From NCBI GenBank assembly GCA_916610825.1, contig OU744448.1:1537501-1601500 (forward strand): a stretch of DNA of 64,000 nucleotides. The letters run 5' to 3'. Shown here piece after piece: positions 39,101 to 44,900 of this stretch (positions are counted from its first letter, which is position 1; every line of letters begins with the position of its first letter). A program made the translations under genes and the position numbers. The notes below the pieces were generated by a model. The model was not told the origin of the DNA and searched no databases. It saw only the letters and a program-made list of their open reading frames with translations. The stretch is from Haliclystus octoradiatus (lineage: Eukaryota; Cnidaria; Staurozoa; Stauromedusae; Haliclystidae).

Positions 39101-41725
39101 TTCCGACTCAACTAAATATATATGATGTCATACTGACCTGGTGATCTTGGTTCATTGGTGTCCATCATAAACGTACAAAGCGCAGTTGGAAGGTCAAGGA
39201 TGTTATTCTCCATAAATAACGATGTACCTTAATAAAAATAGATTACCTCAATAATAAAATAAATTAAATAATTGAAATAAAATAAATCCATTAAAATTAA
39301 TTCAAGGATTTCAGCAGTGCATGACAAAAGGTATAGCCTTCTGGAATCTTGGAAATTTTTCAATATTTTCTTCTCACTTTTTGTGTTGAGGTTTGGTCTC
39401 TAAATTAAAAACTTCTCAATTTGCTCCAGCATTGCAGGGTTCATCTAGGATCCCAGGGTCTCCTCTTTCATCGGACCCTGGATTTCAGTATACAGTCAAT
39501 TTATAACGGTCACCTCTATACAATGGCCACCTGTCTATAGTGGTCAATTTATCTACCTCTCGTAGCTGGCTGTTATATACAGGTTTCAGTATATTGTAAG
39601 TCCCTTGGTCTAGTAGCGATAGACTGATAGTATTATCAATTCATGTACAGACCAGTACTCAAGCAGGAGAATTCAAATTTCAAGAATACATTCAATAATA
39701 TATATATATATATATAATAATAAACTGACACTGACCTCTGAAAACTTTGAGTTTCATATTTTTACCTCCATCACCAAGGTCAGCAATAACAAGCTAAAAT
39801 TCAGACACAATGAGATTATGCAACATTAATAGAATTAGTTGGTTGATAGGAAAGGATTCATTGATTCAAGTATAACAAGAAGAGATCATTTTAACAATTA
39901 AATATCATCCTCATCATCATATCATTTATTGAGTTAAACTTTTAAGCCTAGACAGGCTTTTTTCAAAGGGCTCATTATAAAAAAATATAAAATACAATAT
40001 AATGTTTTTTAAAAAAATTAAATAATTGGTATATTTACAATAGCATATTTTTACACATTCTGCTATAAGTCGAACTGTCAGCGGTCACTTTCATCGAGGA
40101 TGACAGATCGTTCCACAAACAAACACCAGCTGACTGGAAAGAGTTACAATGGCTTTGTTTGATGTATATATCGTTATTGGTTGAGGATCATGTTTTGGTG
40201 GTGAATGGAGAAAAGAAGAATGTTGATATCATATGAGCTGTTAAAGTTTGTCTAGCAGCCTACTGGCCAAGTAGGCCTACTACATTTGTTGTACCGACTA
40301 ATCACCCTTGTTGTCTACATGCAGGAAAACGTTTCTTGGAAGGTAAAAAAAAAAATCAAAACTGACCTTGTTATCTCCATCGGCATGTAAGTCACCTAAA
40401 GCTGAAACAGAGTAAGGAATCATTGTTTATTAATAAAAAGTACCACACTTTCTGAAGCTAGAAATCAGATAAATTATAAAATAAAAGTCTATCTAAATAA
40501 AGAGGTCAAAGACTACATATTTTGTTTTTAATTGTCTGAGGATGTCTCTAAGTTGCATAGCGTTTATATCTAGATTACTATCTACGTGAACATGAAAGTC
40601 AATAAAATAAATAAATTAAAATAATTAATAAAATAAAAAAGTGAATAAGTATGAAATTAAATACTGTGTATACTTTCTTAAATTTTTATTTATATTTACA
40701 GCTCTTTCAACTAACATCGAGCACTGTTCTACTACTATTAGATAATATCTAATAAGCGAAAAAAAAATTCACAATTTAATATCAATTAGTCAATATTGGG
40801 TAAAAGCTGTGCATATATATATGTAGTAATACATAAAAAGGCAACTTTTGACTCATGGCAAAATGTATCATTATCAATTATAAACTAAACAAAAATGTTG
40901 AACTTATTTCGAAATGCAGATATGTTTATACGAAAATGAAAATAGACTTACCACAGCATGAGGTCAATGTATTGACTGAGGCAACAGAATTATTGAGAGC
41001 ATCAAGCCATATGCTTGTCTCTATGACACTAGAATGATATAGAAAATGATAAGCAGTACATATAAATATTCCAATGGAGGATTAGCTCAGATGGCAGAGA
41101 AACCGAACTTCAGATCGGATCATATCTGATCAATCGAGGTTAGAATCCCGCAAAAAACAACTCAGTTGAGACTAAAACATCAAATGAGTACCATCTAAGG
41201 TTGACAGATTGAACGGTTCAGAGCAGAGGTGAACATAAACCGGAATTGAACTCCGGCTTCGGCAGGAGTAGCCTATCCATATTTGAACAAGAGCCGGACT
41301 GGAGTGAATTTTTTGCCAGACAGGAGCAGGTGTCGGAGCTGGAGTCTAGAATGAAACACTGGTAATTTCTTAATAAGCATTGCAAAGTTAAAAATTGCCT
41401 GGATATTCCAATGTAGGGGATGGATTGGCTACTTATTTGAGATTATATCAACTTATTTTCATCTTCCTATGTTTGCTTAGTTTTGTGTTGATAATTTGAT
41501 ACAATTTTAAACTTTTTACAAGAGTTAAATATTTTGGAGCCAGAATGGGAGTCTATTTTTCTTACATTTTTGGAGCTTGACTCGGAGTAAAAGCTAGAAA
41601 TTTTAACTTGCCCTCTGCTCTTGGGAATAGCCGAGGGAATCTAAATTGAACTGATTAAATACTCACCTATCTTCTGCTCTTTTTTCTTTATCCTCGACTG
41701 TTTCAATAGCATTATCGTTCACCAT
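21158..41725 (-). CDS. BBS1: BBS1, BBSome subunit (complete, 22 coding exons)
   Basis: Subunit of the BBSome, the coat-like complex that moves membrane proteins in and out of cilia. Coding exons: 41667-41725, 40952-41028, 40366-40400, 39736-39793, 39138-39227, 38120-38202, 37716-37757, 36623-36669, 36216-36257, 35755-35827, 34905-35036, 31416-31522, 31001-31121, 28768-28852, 28489-28562, 27721-27790, 26194-26259, 24505-24597, 23636-23769, 23208-23345, 22009-22095, 21158-21244. They total exactly 1800 nt (599 aa plus stop), all phases agree, and human BBS1 is 593 aa. Landmarks: [38 protein letters not shown] and [15 protein letters not shown] [12 protein letters not shown] in the beta-propeller; [15 protein letters not shown]; a gamma-adaptin-ear-like C-terminus ending SETAIVV. 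Residue 395 (LILVT) is leucine where, by my alignment, human has the methionine of IMTT (disease site M390). Introns are loaded with repeats. Confidence 0.96.
21440..21870 (+). mobile_element. LINE-type fragment just downstream of BBS1 exon 22009-22095
   Basis: Shares CTCTGCTATTGCTCATCAAC and TTTAGGTCAAGTCGAGAGT with 25490-25700 (reverse) and ends near AATAATGTGACTGTCTATAC, like the copy at 24840-25190 but without a long tail. It yields an 88-codon open frame that I do not regard as a gene. Confidence 0.5.
22560..22965. repeat. GTTCATGAAC palindrome cluster in a BBS1 intron
   Basis: More than a dozen copies or near-copies of AACAGTTCATGAAC with spacers of about 15-30 bases between exons 22009-22095 and 23208-23345. 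GTTCATGAAC is its own reverse complement. The tract happens to give a 77-codon plus-strand open frame, which I treat as chance. This is the leftmost cluster of the family in the window. Confidence 0.85.
23375..23640. repeat. CCTGTATATAACGG-type MITE
   Basis: Repeated words of the type GACCACTATAGACAGGTGG, TTGATTCAACAGAAAATACT and ATTGCAAGAGTGACC. The element abuts BBS1 exon 23636-23769 directly at its donor side and lies close to exon 23208-23345. Confidence 0.7.
24840..25190 (+). mobile_element. LINE 3'-end fragment with (TAC)n tail
   Basis: Broken frames give a reverse-transcriptase-type C-terminal end (GHIERS, then [16 protein letters not shown]), followed by TAATGTGACTGTCTATAC and a TAC trinucleotide tail (25125-25189). 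Related sequence recurs at 21440-21870 and, reversed, at 25490-25700, with the shared words ATTGCTCATCAACGCCAGAT and TAGCAAATCTGTTAGGCG. Family assignment is tentative. Confidence 0.5.
25490..25700 (-). mobile_element. LINE-type fragment, minus orientation
   Basis: Reverse complement of the 21.5-21.7 kb segment: GACAGTCACATTATTATAGT, then CTAAAATTGACATCTGGCGT. Lies in a BBS1 intron. Confidence 0.5.
26369..26583. mobile_element. TTAA-flanked MITE (copy b, diverged)
   Basis: Ends TTAAAGGAGCAACATTGACC and GGTCAATTTTGCCCCTTTAA, with TTAA on both sides. The middle is rearranged, with ATGGCTTAGC repeated at about 26452-26473. Lies in the BBS1 intron between exons 26194-26259 and 27721-27790. Confidence 0.7.
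26655..26785 (+). mobile_element. SINE family 1 fragment next to the satellite
   Basis: GGGTCTTGAGCTCAATTCCT (B-box-like), then GCGCCAGGAAGGACATCCAG, ending CCCAGTAAAAAGGTACTAGG. It matches the copy at 56735-56945 and runs straight into the satellite. Confidence 0.6.
26787..27718. repeat. Tandem satellite, about 17 units of 60, 58 or about 40 bp
   Basis: The core is ACACACATGCACATGCAATG followed by ATTATAGCTACGATCTAT. Units come in three classes: 6 with ACCTGATTTGTGATGAA (60 bp), 7 with ACCTTTTGTGATGAA (58 bp) and 4 lacking that part. The array abuts the 5' splice site of BBS1 exon 27721-27790. On the minus strand the 58-bp units contain TCACAAAAG|GTAT, identical to that real exon end and donor. 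Confidence 0.95.
28879..29820. mobile_element. 0.94 kb TTAA-flanked foldback element
   Basis: Starts TTAAAGTGTATATCCCGG and ends CCGGGATATACACTTTAA. The arms, each about 430 bp, pair almost throughout, meeting around 29310-29380 near AGAGGTGTTAATCGTGTGAG. No coding capacity is visible. It lies in a BBS1 intron only 24 bp upstream of the 3' splice-site AG (28853-28854) of exon 28768-28852. Confidence 0.85.
30592..30787. repeat. (TTTTG)n pentanucleotide tract
   Basis: About 200 bp of TTTTG repeats with interruptions, in a BBS1 intron. It produces overlapping Phe/Cys/Leu-rich open frames in three phases that are artefacts of the repeat. Confidence 0.95.
31545..31955. repeat. CCTGTATATAACGG-type MITE split by a nested insertion
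   Basis: The outer MITE runs 31545-31630 and resumes at about 31863. Between them, about 31632-31862, lies a segment with inverted ends GGCACGCTTCCCAAATGG and CAAATGGGAAGCGTGAC. The interruption falls inside the word GATTCAATAGAAAATA, so the inner element inserted later. Confidence 0.65.
32030..32180. repeat. Palindromic MITE beside the 2.3 kb foldback
   Basis: AAGTTTCACGCTATATGCGA pairs with TCGCATAAAGCATGAAACTT. The outer words AGTCAAAGACTACACAATTT and AAATTTGTAGTGTTTGAGTT also pair. A partial relative is at about 40497-40530. Confidence 0.7.
32191..34503. mobile_element. 2.3 kb TTAA-flanked foldback element with arms of about 1 kb
   Basis: Starts TTAAAGTGCACATGACACC and ends GGTGTCATGTGCACTTTAA. 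The left arm, about 32191-33245, returns inverted at about 33464-34503 with few mismatches and small indels; the loop is about 215 bp. It lies in the BBS1 intron between exons 31416-31522 and 34905-35036. No transposase frame was recognised. High arm identity suggests a young insertion or arm correction. Confidence 0.9.
35219..35470. repeat. (ATT)n microsatellite, about 84 units
   Basis: About 250 bp of essentially uninterrupted ATT in the BBS1 intron between exons 34905-35036 and 35755-35827. One frame reads as poly-isoleucine, which is not a gene. Confidence 0.97.
37225..37505. repeat. GTTCATGAAC palindrome cluster with a terminal motif
   Basis: Starts with ACCCCTGTGAAAAAACACAT, a motif seen at other copies, and contains two related tandem blocks (TCATGAACAGTCACAAAGAG twice). 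Lies in the BBS1 intron between exons 36623-36669 and 37716-37757. Confidence 0.85.
38309..38515. mobile_element. TTAA-flanked MITE (copy c, opposite orientation)
   Basis: Nearly identical to the 16.4 kb copy but reversed: it starts TTAAAGGAGCAAAAATGACC and ends GGTCAATTTTGCCCCTTTAA. It sits in a BBS1 intron, about 105 bp upstream (minus-strand sense) of exon 38120-38202. Confidence 0.8.
38660..38930. mobile_element. SINE family 2 (partial)
   Basis: Shares long identity with 45060-45310: CCCGTACCACTMCTCTATTT, CAGCCGCGACACTGCAGATC and CAACAGATTTCATGGCAGAT. An 83-codon open frame over it is not conserved as protein between copies. Confidence 0.65.
39310..39482. repeat. MITE with CAGGGTCCGACAAAAG-type ends (BBS1 intron copy)
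   Basis: GCATGACAAAAGGTATAGCC at the left, TTCATCGGACCCTGG at the right, TTCTGGAATCTTGG and CTAGGATCCCAGGGTC inside. Sister copies: 49598-49795 (inverted), 52309-52490 and a fragment near 35888-36090. Confidence 0.6.
39905..40160 (-). mobile_element. LINE 3' end with ATG-rich tail
   Basis: On the minus strand one frame reads [20 protein letters not shown], the kind of C-terminal end seen in non-LTR reverse transcriptases (compare WNSLP), followed by a 3' region ending AATAAATGATATGATGATGA. The same tail words recur at 47230-47310, 9460-9490 and 1950-1985. Confidence 0.5.
41071..41215 (+). mobile_element. tRNA-like SINE head (family 2) in BBS1 intron 1
   Basis: A-box-like TTAGCTCAGATGGCAGAG and B-box-like GGTTAGAATCCC are followed by CATCAAATGAGTACCATCTA, the family-2 body. 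It cannot be folded as a functional tRNA because the ends GGAGGAT and CCCGCAA do not pair. Confidence 0.6.
41222..41628. repeat. hAT-like non-autonomous element in BBS1 intron 1
   Basis: Starts CAGAGGTGAACATAAACCGG and ends near TTAACTTGCCCTCTG, with internal CTCCGGCT/GGAGCTGGAGTC-type words. CAGAGG...CCTCTG ends are typical of hAT MITEs. No clear 8-bp target duplication was found. Confidence 0.45.

Positions 41726-44900: not shown

Follow-up and report, generated by a model that had tools for sequence, protein, structure and literature searches.

A divergent BBS1 and KIF3A gene pair in Haliclystus octoradiatus with predicted start codons 212 bp apart and a probably RFX-independent interval between them

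Divergent gene pairs are a familiar feature of animal genomes. In fly, 31.6% of genes are reported to lie in such pairs, and in 59.0% of cases the two transcription starts are less than 400 bp from each other (PMC2670823). Among ciliary genes, the human ciliopathy genes EVC and EVC2 lie head-to-head, and the neighbouring TMEM138 and TMEM216 are proposed to share regulation (PMC3631122). The locus described here pairs two other ciliary genes head-to-head, BBS1 and KIF3A. Like the divergent pairs of PMC2670823, they occupy opposite strands and their predicted starts are separated by far less than 1 kb; the gap falls in the size range commonest in fly, although it separates predicted start codons and the published gaps separate mapped transcription starts. 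Literature searches combining BBS1 and KIF3A with head-to-head, bidirectional promoter or microsynteny found no source naming this pairing (the head-to-head search returned an unrelated review).

The window, the whole 64,000-nucleotide stretch that was analysed, contains both genes, which can be modelled intact with their 5′ ends facing:

21158..41725, minus strand: BBS1 gene (BBSome subunit 1), 20 modelled exons, 597 residues
BBS1 exons 1-7, minus strand, model: 41725-41667, 41028-40952, 40401-40367, 39793-39736, 39227-39138, 38202-38120, 37757-37742 (3′ end doubtful)
BBS1 exons 8-14, minus strand, model: 35936-35755 (5′ end doubtful), 35036-34905, 31522-31416, 31121-31001, 28852-28768, 28562-28489, 27790-27721
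BBS1 exons 15-20, minus strand, model: 26259-26194, 24597-24505, 23769-23636, 23345-23208, 22095-22009, 21244-21158
41667..41725, minus strand: BBS1 first coding exon, 59 nt, 19 residues, predicted without homology support
41726..41937: the 212 bp separating the predicted start codons, a putative divergent promoter
41938..41943, plus strand: KIF3A first coding exon, ATGGCA followed by donor GTAAGT, predicted without homology support
41938..52722, plus strand: KIF3A gene (kinesin-2 motor subunit), 18 modelled exons, 692 residues
KIF3A exons 1-6, plus strand, model: 41938-41943, 42956-43217, 43914-44058, 44790-44874, 45888-45993, 46096-46235
KIF3A exons 7-12, plus strand, model: 46736-46933, 47467-47522, 47842-47960, 48859-48984, 49227-49383, 50367-50439
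KIF3A exons 13-18, plus strand, model: 50526-50633, 51026-51136, 51455-51580, 51708-51761, 51874-51942, 52585-52722

The models were built from tblastn matches to human BBS1 and KIF3A sequences. Rows in order along the genes were selected manually (BBS1, 19 rows; KIF3A, 17 rows; some of them trimmed), scattered weak rows were omitted, and a script imposed GT-AG junctions; each model ends in a single terminal stop. The BBS1 model gives a blastp match of 49.4% over 569 amino acids, and its first 139 residues match Pfam BBS1 (E 3.6e-46) and the BBS1 chains of PDB entries 6vbu and 6xt9 (E 6.6e-39 and 2.5e-38). Pfam BBS1 is reported three times in the genome, each time within this gene, and the near full-length match together with the Pfam domain identifies it as the BBS1 orthologue. 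No exon was located for the part corresponding roughly to human residues 147-172, which makes the junction 37742/35936 doubtful. The kinesin model carries a Pfam Kinesin domain (E 1e-124) and, against the human sequences, is 64.8% identical to KIF3A over 690 amino acids versus 48.2% to KIF3B over 643, with the same preference in the motor (79.5% versus 62.9%) and the tail (49.9% versus 30.7%). A PDB search returned a KIF3B chain as the best match, with no KIF3A chain among the matches listed (60 of 115). By its identities to the human proteins the gene classifies as the KIF3A orthologue, closer to KIF3A than to KIF3B in motor and tail alike. The head-to-head arrangement claimed by the first-pass annotation is upheld, including the opposite strands, the 212-bp spacing and, as gene models, BBS1 exon 1 and KIF3A exons 1 and 2.

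The two first coding exons are predicted from reading phase, donor score and the absence of a good acceptor nearby. BBS1 exon 1 is narrowly the top phase-2 candidate by donor score (7.4); the runner-up uses a donor at 41901 (7.2) with an ATG at 41989 or 41956. KIF3A exon 1 is the top phase-0 candidate (6.0, next 5.4). Upstream of the KIF3A start, all acceptors within 361 nt score at most 1.3 and one at 362 nt scores 7.9; upstream of the BBS1 start, those within 150 nt score at most 3.1, and acceptors at 175 and 199 nt score 5.2 and 7.6. For comparison, the acceptors at 33 of the two genes' own junctions have a median score of 8.2, with 4 of the 33 at or below 3.4 (the splice matrices omit 1 of 34 junctions). 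Because stronger acceptors sit further upstream, some accepted ones are weak and the search covered 400 nt, untranslated first exons further out are possible.

With a start-to-start gap of just 212 bp, BBS1 and KIF3A probably share a promoter region. The stretch 41700-41960 matches the genome once, at itself. We favour, with moderate confidence, the reading that the interval is an ordinary divergent promoter region for BBS1 in one direction and KIF3A in the opposite one, in a neighbourhood made by rearrangement, and that any link between the genes is a general one and not an RFX X-box. A rearrangement would have brought the genes together; both transcripts would start inside the interval, from two core promoters within one open stretch, each serving one gene; and shared open chromatin would couple their expression, if it is coupled. 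The intact divergent models, the best-scoring, phase-matched first exons, the lack of good close acceptors and the single genomic match are consistent with this arrangement. Divergent pairs are common in animals (PMC2670823), and in this genome a divergent start is also predicted 378 bp from IFT57. What speaks against it is that the first exons are predicted, with a BBS1 exon starting at 41956 or 41989 scoring almost as well, that stronger acceptors lie further upstream, and that CpG content in the interval is only mildly raised (7 CpG, a number reached in 19% of 1276 stretches). The first-pass annotation had proposed a bidirectional ciliary promoter around an X-box-like site; a shared region is the natural reading of the gap, but the interval contains no good X-box.

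Chance adjacency, in which the two genes are transcribed independently and one or both start from an untranslated exon elsewhere, is an unlikely explanation. It draws on the predicted status of the first exons and on the stronger acceptors further upstream, and human divergent pairs are reported to be conserved only among vertebrates (PMC2670823), which suggests that such pairs come and go. Weighing against it, the predicted first exons are top-scoring with no good acceptor close by, and 212 bp would leave little room for two independent regulatory regions.

Three short elements within the interval bear on what else might set its activity:

41770..41778, minus strand: ATGGCGAAC arm, sense to BBS1, opening a 4-codon upstream frame
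41837..41851, minus strand: X-box-like 15-mer GTTAACTATGGCGAC named by the first-pass annotation, judged unlikely to be an RFX site
41844..41852, plus strand: ATGGCGACC arm, sense to KIF3A, overlapping the X-box-like 15-mer and opening a 10-codon upstream frame

The two arms share the form ATGGCGA(A/C)C, which we take to be a YY1/TISU-like core, presuming GCCATNTT, or ATGGC, to be the core of the YY1 motif. On that assumption, an ATGGC-type element would lie between the starts of the divergent Surf-1/Surf-2 pair as it does here. It is rather unlikely, although precedented by YY1 at the Surf-1/Surf-2 bidirectional promoter (as cited in PMC2670823), that the arms are two symmetrical YY1-type, or related translation-start, elements setting both starts; YY1 involvement is reported at Surf-1/Surf-2, whereas the BBS1/KIF3A interval offers a sequence resemblance. 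ATGGCGAMC occurs exactly twice in the 64 kb (0.23 expected; two in 0 of 100 shuffles), both times in the interval, inverted and each arm sense to its own gene, and no shuffle of the interval among 5000 held both arms. The predicted gene divergent from IFT57 starts at CAAGATGGCGGC. Against this, the motif was picked after the sequence had been viewed, the inverted pair (TCGCCAT-N45..75-ATGGCGA) is hardly enriched genome-wide (10, the BBS1/KIF3A copy included, versus 7 for the reversed control), and ATGGCG alone shows no clear enrichment in the window (14 versus 9.2 expected, reached in 8 of 100 shuffles). By eye, the YY1 form GCCATNTT fits the BBS1-side arm but not the KIF3A-side arm. Having been noticed post hoc and being hardly enriched genome-wide, the inverted pair is kept as a lead. 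A further-reaching reading is improbable: that an RFX-independent bidirectional promoter, lineage-specific or ancient, with the inverted ATGGCGA element couples the gene for the BBSome cargo adaptor to that for the kinesin-2 motor and so would place BBS1, normally RFX-bound, under the control of a more generally expressed motor gene.

Read on the minus strand, the 15-mer GTTAACTATGGCGAC differs from GTNRCC-N3-RGYAAC at one position, in line with the one mismatch given by the first-pass annotation. That layout is matched once in the 64 kb (2.44 expected). With any spacer of 0-3, a site as good is found in 29 of 1204 overlapping segments of 212 bp across the window (2.4%) and in 14 of 1000 shuffles of the interval (1.4%), which makes the 15-mer mildly unusual for so short a stretch. 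Judged as an RFX site, it has one faulty half-site whichever strand is read. In its loosest published form, with RYYNYY and RRNRAC half-sites, the RFX consensus allows spacers of 1-3 (PMC2375033), and the 15-mer falls one base short of both RYYNYY-N3-RRNRAC and RYNNYY-N3-RRNRAC on both strands; the best 14-mer there has 4 mismatches. One sequence inside the interval, ATTTTTTTAACAAC at 41777, matches the loosest consensus (0.31 expected per 212 bp), and intron 1 of KIF3A carries two one-mismatch X-box-like sites, starting from positions given as 42817 and 42853. If the predicted starts are right, the 15-mer lies 86 bp from that of KIF3A and 111 bp from that of BBS1; the worm norm for X-boxes is 100-250 bp upstream of the coding sequence (PMC2873420).

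Genome-wide, exact sites with a 3-base spacer number 126/117 against a Markov expectation of 39-43, about 3 times over, but their reversed control is itself about 4 times over (329/338 versus 80-89), and spacing by itself therefore does not decide the X-box question. Sites with a 2-base spacer reach 11-13 times expectation (486/474), with a reversed control at about 1 times (78/113), and the canonical GTTRCCATGGYAAC occurs 280 times versus 0 in the control (2-3 expected). Of 15 palindromic 2-base-spacer sites fetched, 6 belong to one repeat family and 2 more are alike over 96 bp; because repeats swell the 2-base count, we do not lean on the 280 copies as evidence of RFX use. On consensus, spacing and chance taken together, the 15-mer was judged unlikely to be an X-box, given its faulty half-site on each strand, its 4-mismatch 14-mer and a 3-base spacer not clearly favoured in this genome.

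Eight other ciliary genes, each named by Pfam match (KAP3, IFT81, BBS2, three tektins, BBS9 and IFT57), served for comparison. In two of the tektins, the 200 bp preceding the first recognised coding base include a 14-mer with no more than 2 mismatches; each is a 2-base-spacer site that has 2 mismatches and lies about 150 bp upstream. The 64-kb window holds one such 14-mer. KAP3 has a 14-mer of this grade 1422 bp upstream and a one-mismatch 3-base-spacer site 1400 bp upstream. The other five had no such 14-mer in the fetched stretch of about 1 to 5 kb, weak negatives because the first exon is known for IFT57 alone, where the start codon is readable.

RFX-driven co-expression also sits uneasily with what is reported from Drosophila. 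RFX targets in fly and worm include BBS genes (PMC2375033, PMC1794439), and Drosophila BBS1 depends on dRFX, but the KIF3A homologue, Klp64D, does not: it and KAP3 are invariant without dRFX, as are said to be two further fly kinesin subunits, with data not shown in the source (PMC2375033). Of the first-pass proposal, the head-to-head pair stands and the RFX X-box is not supported. At TMEM138/TMEM216, head-to-tail, RFX4 is reported bound between the genes (PMC3631122), whereas the candidate site between BBS1 and KIF3A tests poorly. That both genes are activated by an RFX factor bound at GTTAACTATGGCGAC, or at a weak site close to it, is very improbable, the site's near match and the published tolerance for 3-base spacers notwithstanding, and the interval is probably RFX-independent.

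The ordinary divergent promoter remains our preferred reading. The arrangement is real yet fairly ordinary, one more head-to-head pair of a sort common in animals, and as it stands its main use is to warn that a motif with one mismatch should not be taken for an X-box. If the pair proves conserved and co-expressed, it would offer a simple natural balance of cargo adaptor with motor, outside the RFX programme.

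The BBS1-KIF3A gene pair is real. Human BBS1 and KIF3A sequences used as tblastn queries recovered both genes exon by exon, with gaps: human BBS1 residues 21-588 from 41015 to 21176 (minus strand) and human KIF3A residues 9-688 from 42959 to 52719 (plus strand). Spliced models from hand-picked tblastn rows, with GT-AG junctions imposed, are intact with a single terminal stop each: 597 residues in 20 exons for BBS1 and 692 residues in 18 exons for KIF3A. No exon was found for human residues about 147-172, which leaves one BBS1 junction in doubt. BBS1 shows 49.4% identity across 569 aa, and the first 139 aa of its model match Pfam BBS1 (3.6e-46) and BBS1 chains in the PDB. 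The KIF3A model is closer to human KIF3A than to KIF3B overall (64.8% across 690 aa versus 48.2% across 643 aa), in the motor (79.5% versus 62.9%) and in the tail (49.9% versus 30.7%); a PDB search with it returned KIF3B as the top chain and no KIF3A chain among the best 60 of 115 matches.

The first-pass annotation had placed the two genes head to head across 212 bp, and the models bear this out, with predicted ATGs at 41725 (BBS1) and 41938 (KIF3A). Neither first exon is homology-backed: BBS1 homology starts only at exon 2, and the predicted KIF3A first exon holds six coding bases. A stop codon immediately 5' of KIF3A exon 2 means that this gene needs an upstream exon. Scored with splice matrices built from 33 junctions of both genes, the proposed first exons beat all other phase-compatible candidates within the searched stretch: the BBS1 donor scores 7.4, ahead of 7.2 for a start at 41989 or 41956, and the KIF3A donor 6.0, ahead of 5.4 for the next candidate. 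In the 361 nt before the KIF3A ATG no acceptor exceeds 1.3, and one scoring 7.9 lies at 362 nt; the strongest acceptor in the 150 nt before the BBS1 ATG scores 3.1, and farther out come 5.2 at 175 nt and 7.6 at 199 nt. Accepted acceptors of the two genes have a median of 8.2, with 4 of 33 at 3.4 or less. On these scores both genes probably start inside the interval. The sequence 41700-41960 has a single match in the genome (262 Mb, 33 contigs; window at C4:1537501-1601500). That BBS1 and KIF3A are rich in introns suggests an animal genome.

Next to BBS1 there may be a doublecortin-like kinase gene (1-18923, minus), judging from a kinase piece and a DCX match that share a strand.

Other features in the window
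621-896, minus strand: kinase exon piece, Pkinase match
4330-4343: X-box-like GTTACCATAGCAAC, between the kinase piece and the DCX match
18252-18920, minus strand: DCX sequence match in two stretches
43348-43648, 22699-22948, 37280-37461, 50909-50965, 53400-53460 and 54158-54224: arrays of GTTCATGAAC-type units
43348-43577: 69-bp tandem repeat of GTTCATGAAC-type units, KIF3A intron 2
60545-60733, minus strand: ORF with a sub-threshold RNA polymerase I A49 match (20.8 bits versus a cut-off of 27)

The best explanation overall is probably an ordinary divergent promoter region that does not work through an RFX X-box. Divergent pairs are common, with figures of 31.6% of fly genes and 59.0% of gaps <400 bp in excerpts of PMC2670823. 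Two ciliary genes paired by chance somewhere in a genome would not be improbable; chance adjacency of BBS1 and KIF3A we rate as rather unlikely. An open-access literature search found no paper on this pairing. In the same genome, IFT57 has a predicted divergent start codon 378 bp away (599, minus, and 978, plus, in the fetched locus L064; contig 11 near 15617098-15617477), with surrounding sequence CAAGATGGCGGC (MAASPPFSWKNAVVDKLLQRNEREHKAFREIVTS followed by a splice donor); the encoded peptide resembles an ATG16 N-terminus by eye and has no Pfam or NCBIfam match up to E 0.05.

The divergent promoter region that we favour was earlier credited with an X-box-like site at 41837-41851, which now looks unlikely to be an RFX X-box. 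On the minus strand this 15-mer has one mismatch to GTNRCC-N3-RGYAAC, a level reached once in 64 kb versus 2.44 expected. With spacers of 0-3 allowed, sites of this quality turn up in 29 of the 1204 overlapping 212-bp stretches, and 14 of 1000 shuffled intervals contain one, which makes the candidate mildly unusual but not striking. As a 14-mer it carries four mismatches, and on either strand it lies one base off the loosest Drosophila consensus, RYYNYY N1-3 RRNRAC. ATTTTTTTAACAAC at 41777, elsewhere in the interval, fits that consensus (0.31 expected); KIF3A intron 1 holds two one-mismatch X-box-like sites (42817 and 42853). According to excerpts of a Drosophila study (PMC2375033), negative control genes contain such loose matches just as often, and their presence is no predictor of RFX dependence. 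Its table, column headings not visible, lists 211 for BBS1, 1.1 for Klp64D (the KIF3A homologue) and 1 for KAP3, and its text refers to fold down-regulation under dRfx deficiency; known regulation thus does not predict an RFX switch common to BBS1 and KIF3A.

Genome-wide, exact 2-base-spacer sites number 486/474 versus 38-43 Markov-expected (reversed control 78/113 versus 80-89), and 3-base-spacer sites 126/117 versus 39-43 (reversed control 329/338 versus 80-89). Of the two layouts the 2-base one is therefore prominent, and the 3-base one shows no excess beyond that of its own control; that this control itself exceeds expectation weakens the spacing test against an RFX-driven promoter, a reading we consider very improbable. 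The strict palindromic X-box has 280 copies versus 0 for its control. Six of 15 fetched palindromic sites fall in one repeat family, which means that repeat copies account for part of the 2-base excess. This dispersed family carries the perfect palindrome GTTGCCATGGCAAC (centres of loci L004, L009, L010, L011, L013 and L016), and its copies could seed RFX sites genome-wide. GTTACCATAGCAAC occurs nine times on one strand of contig 1 (1334308-1385467), 3.6 to 17 kb apart, with spacings of 3587-3588 and 6069 bases that recur, a pattern like that of a large tandem repeat. Eight other ciliary genes served as a positive control: measured from the first recognised coding base, two tektins have 2-mismatch 2-base-spacer sites 146 and 154 bp upstream, and six have no comparable site within 200 bp; the window contains one site as good as the tektins'. 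For KAP3, two sites lie about 1.4 kb upstream: a 14-mer with two mismatches and a 3-base-spacer site with one.

ATGGCGAMC, a motif chosen post hoc after viewing the sequence, occurs twice in 64 kb (0.23 expected), both times within the interval and inverted, each copy sense to its own gene (41770-41778, minus; 41844-41852, plus). None of 5000 shuffled versions of the interval contains both arms; one arm overlaps the X-box-like 15-mer and explains its GGCGAC half. Genome-wide the inverted pair is hardly enriched (10, this copy counted, versus 7 for the control). We take the motif to be similar to YY1 or translation-start elements. YY1 is named for Surf-1/Surf-2 in excerpts of PMC2670823. The inverted pair is a lead, and a putative promoter shared by BBS1 and KIF3A is plausible.
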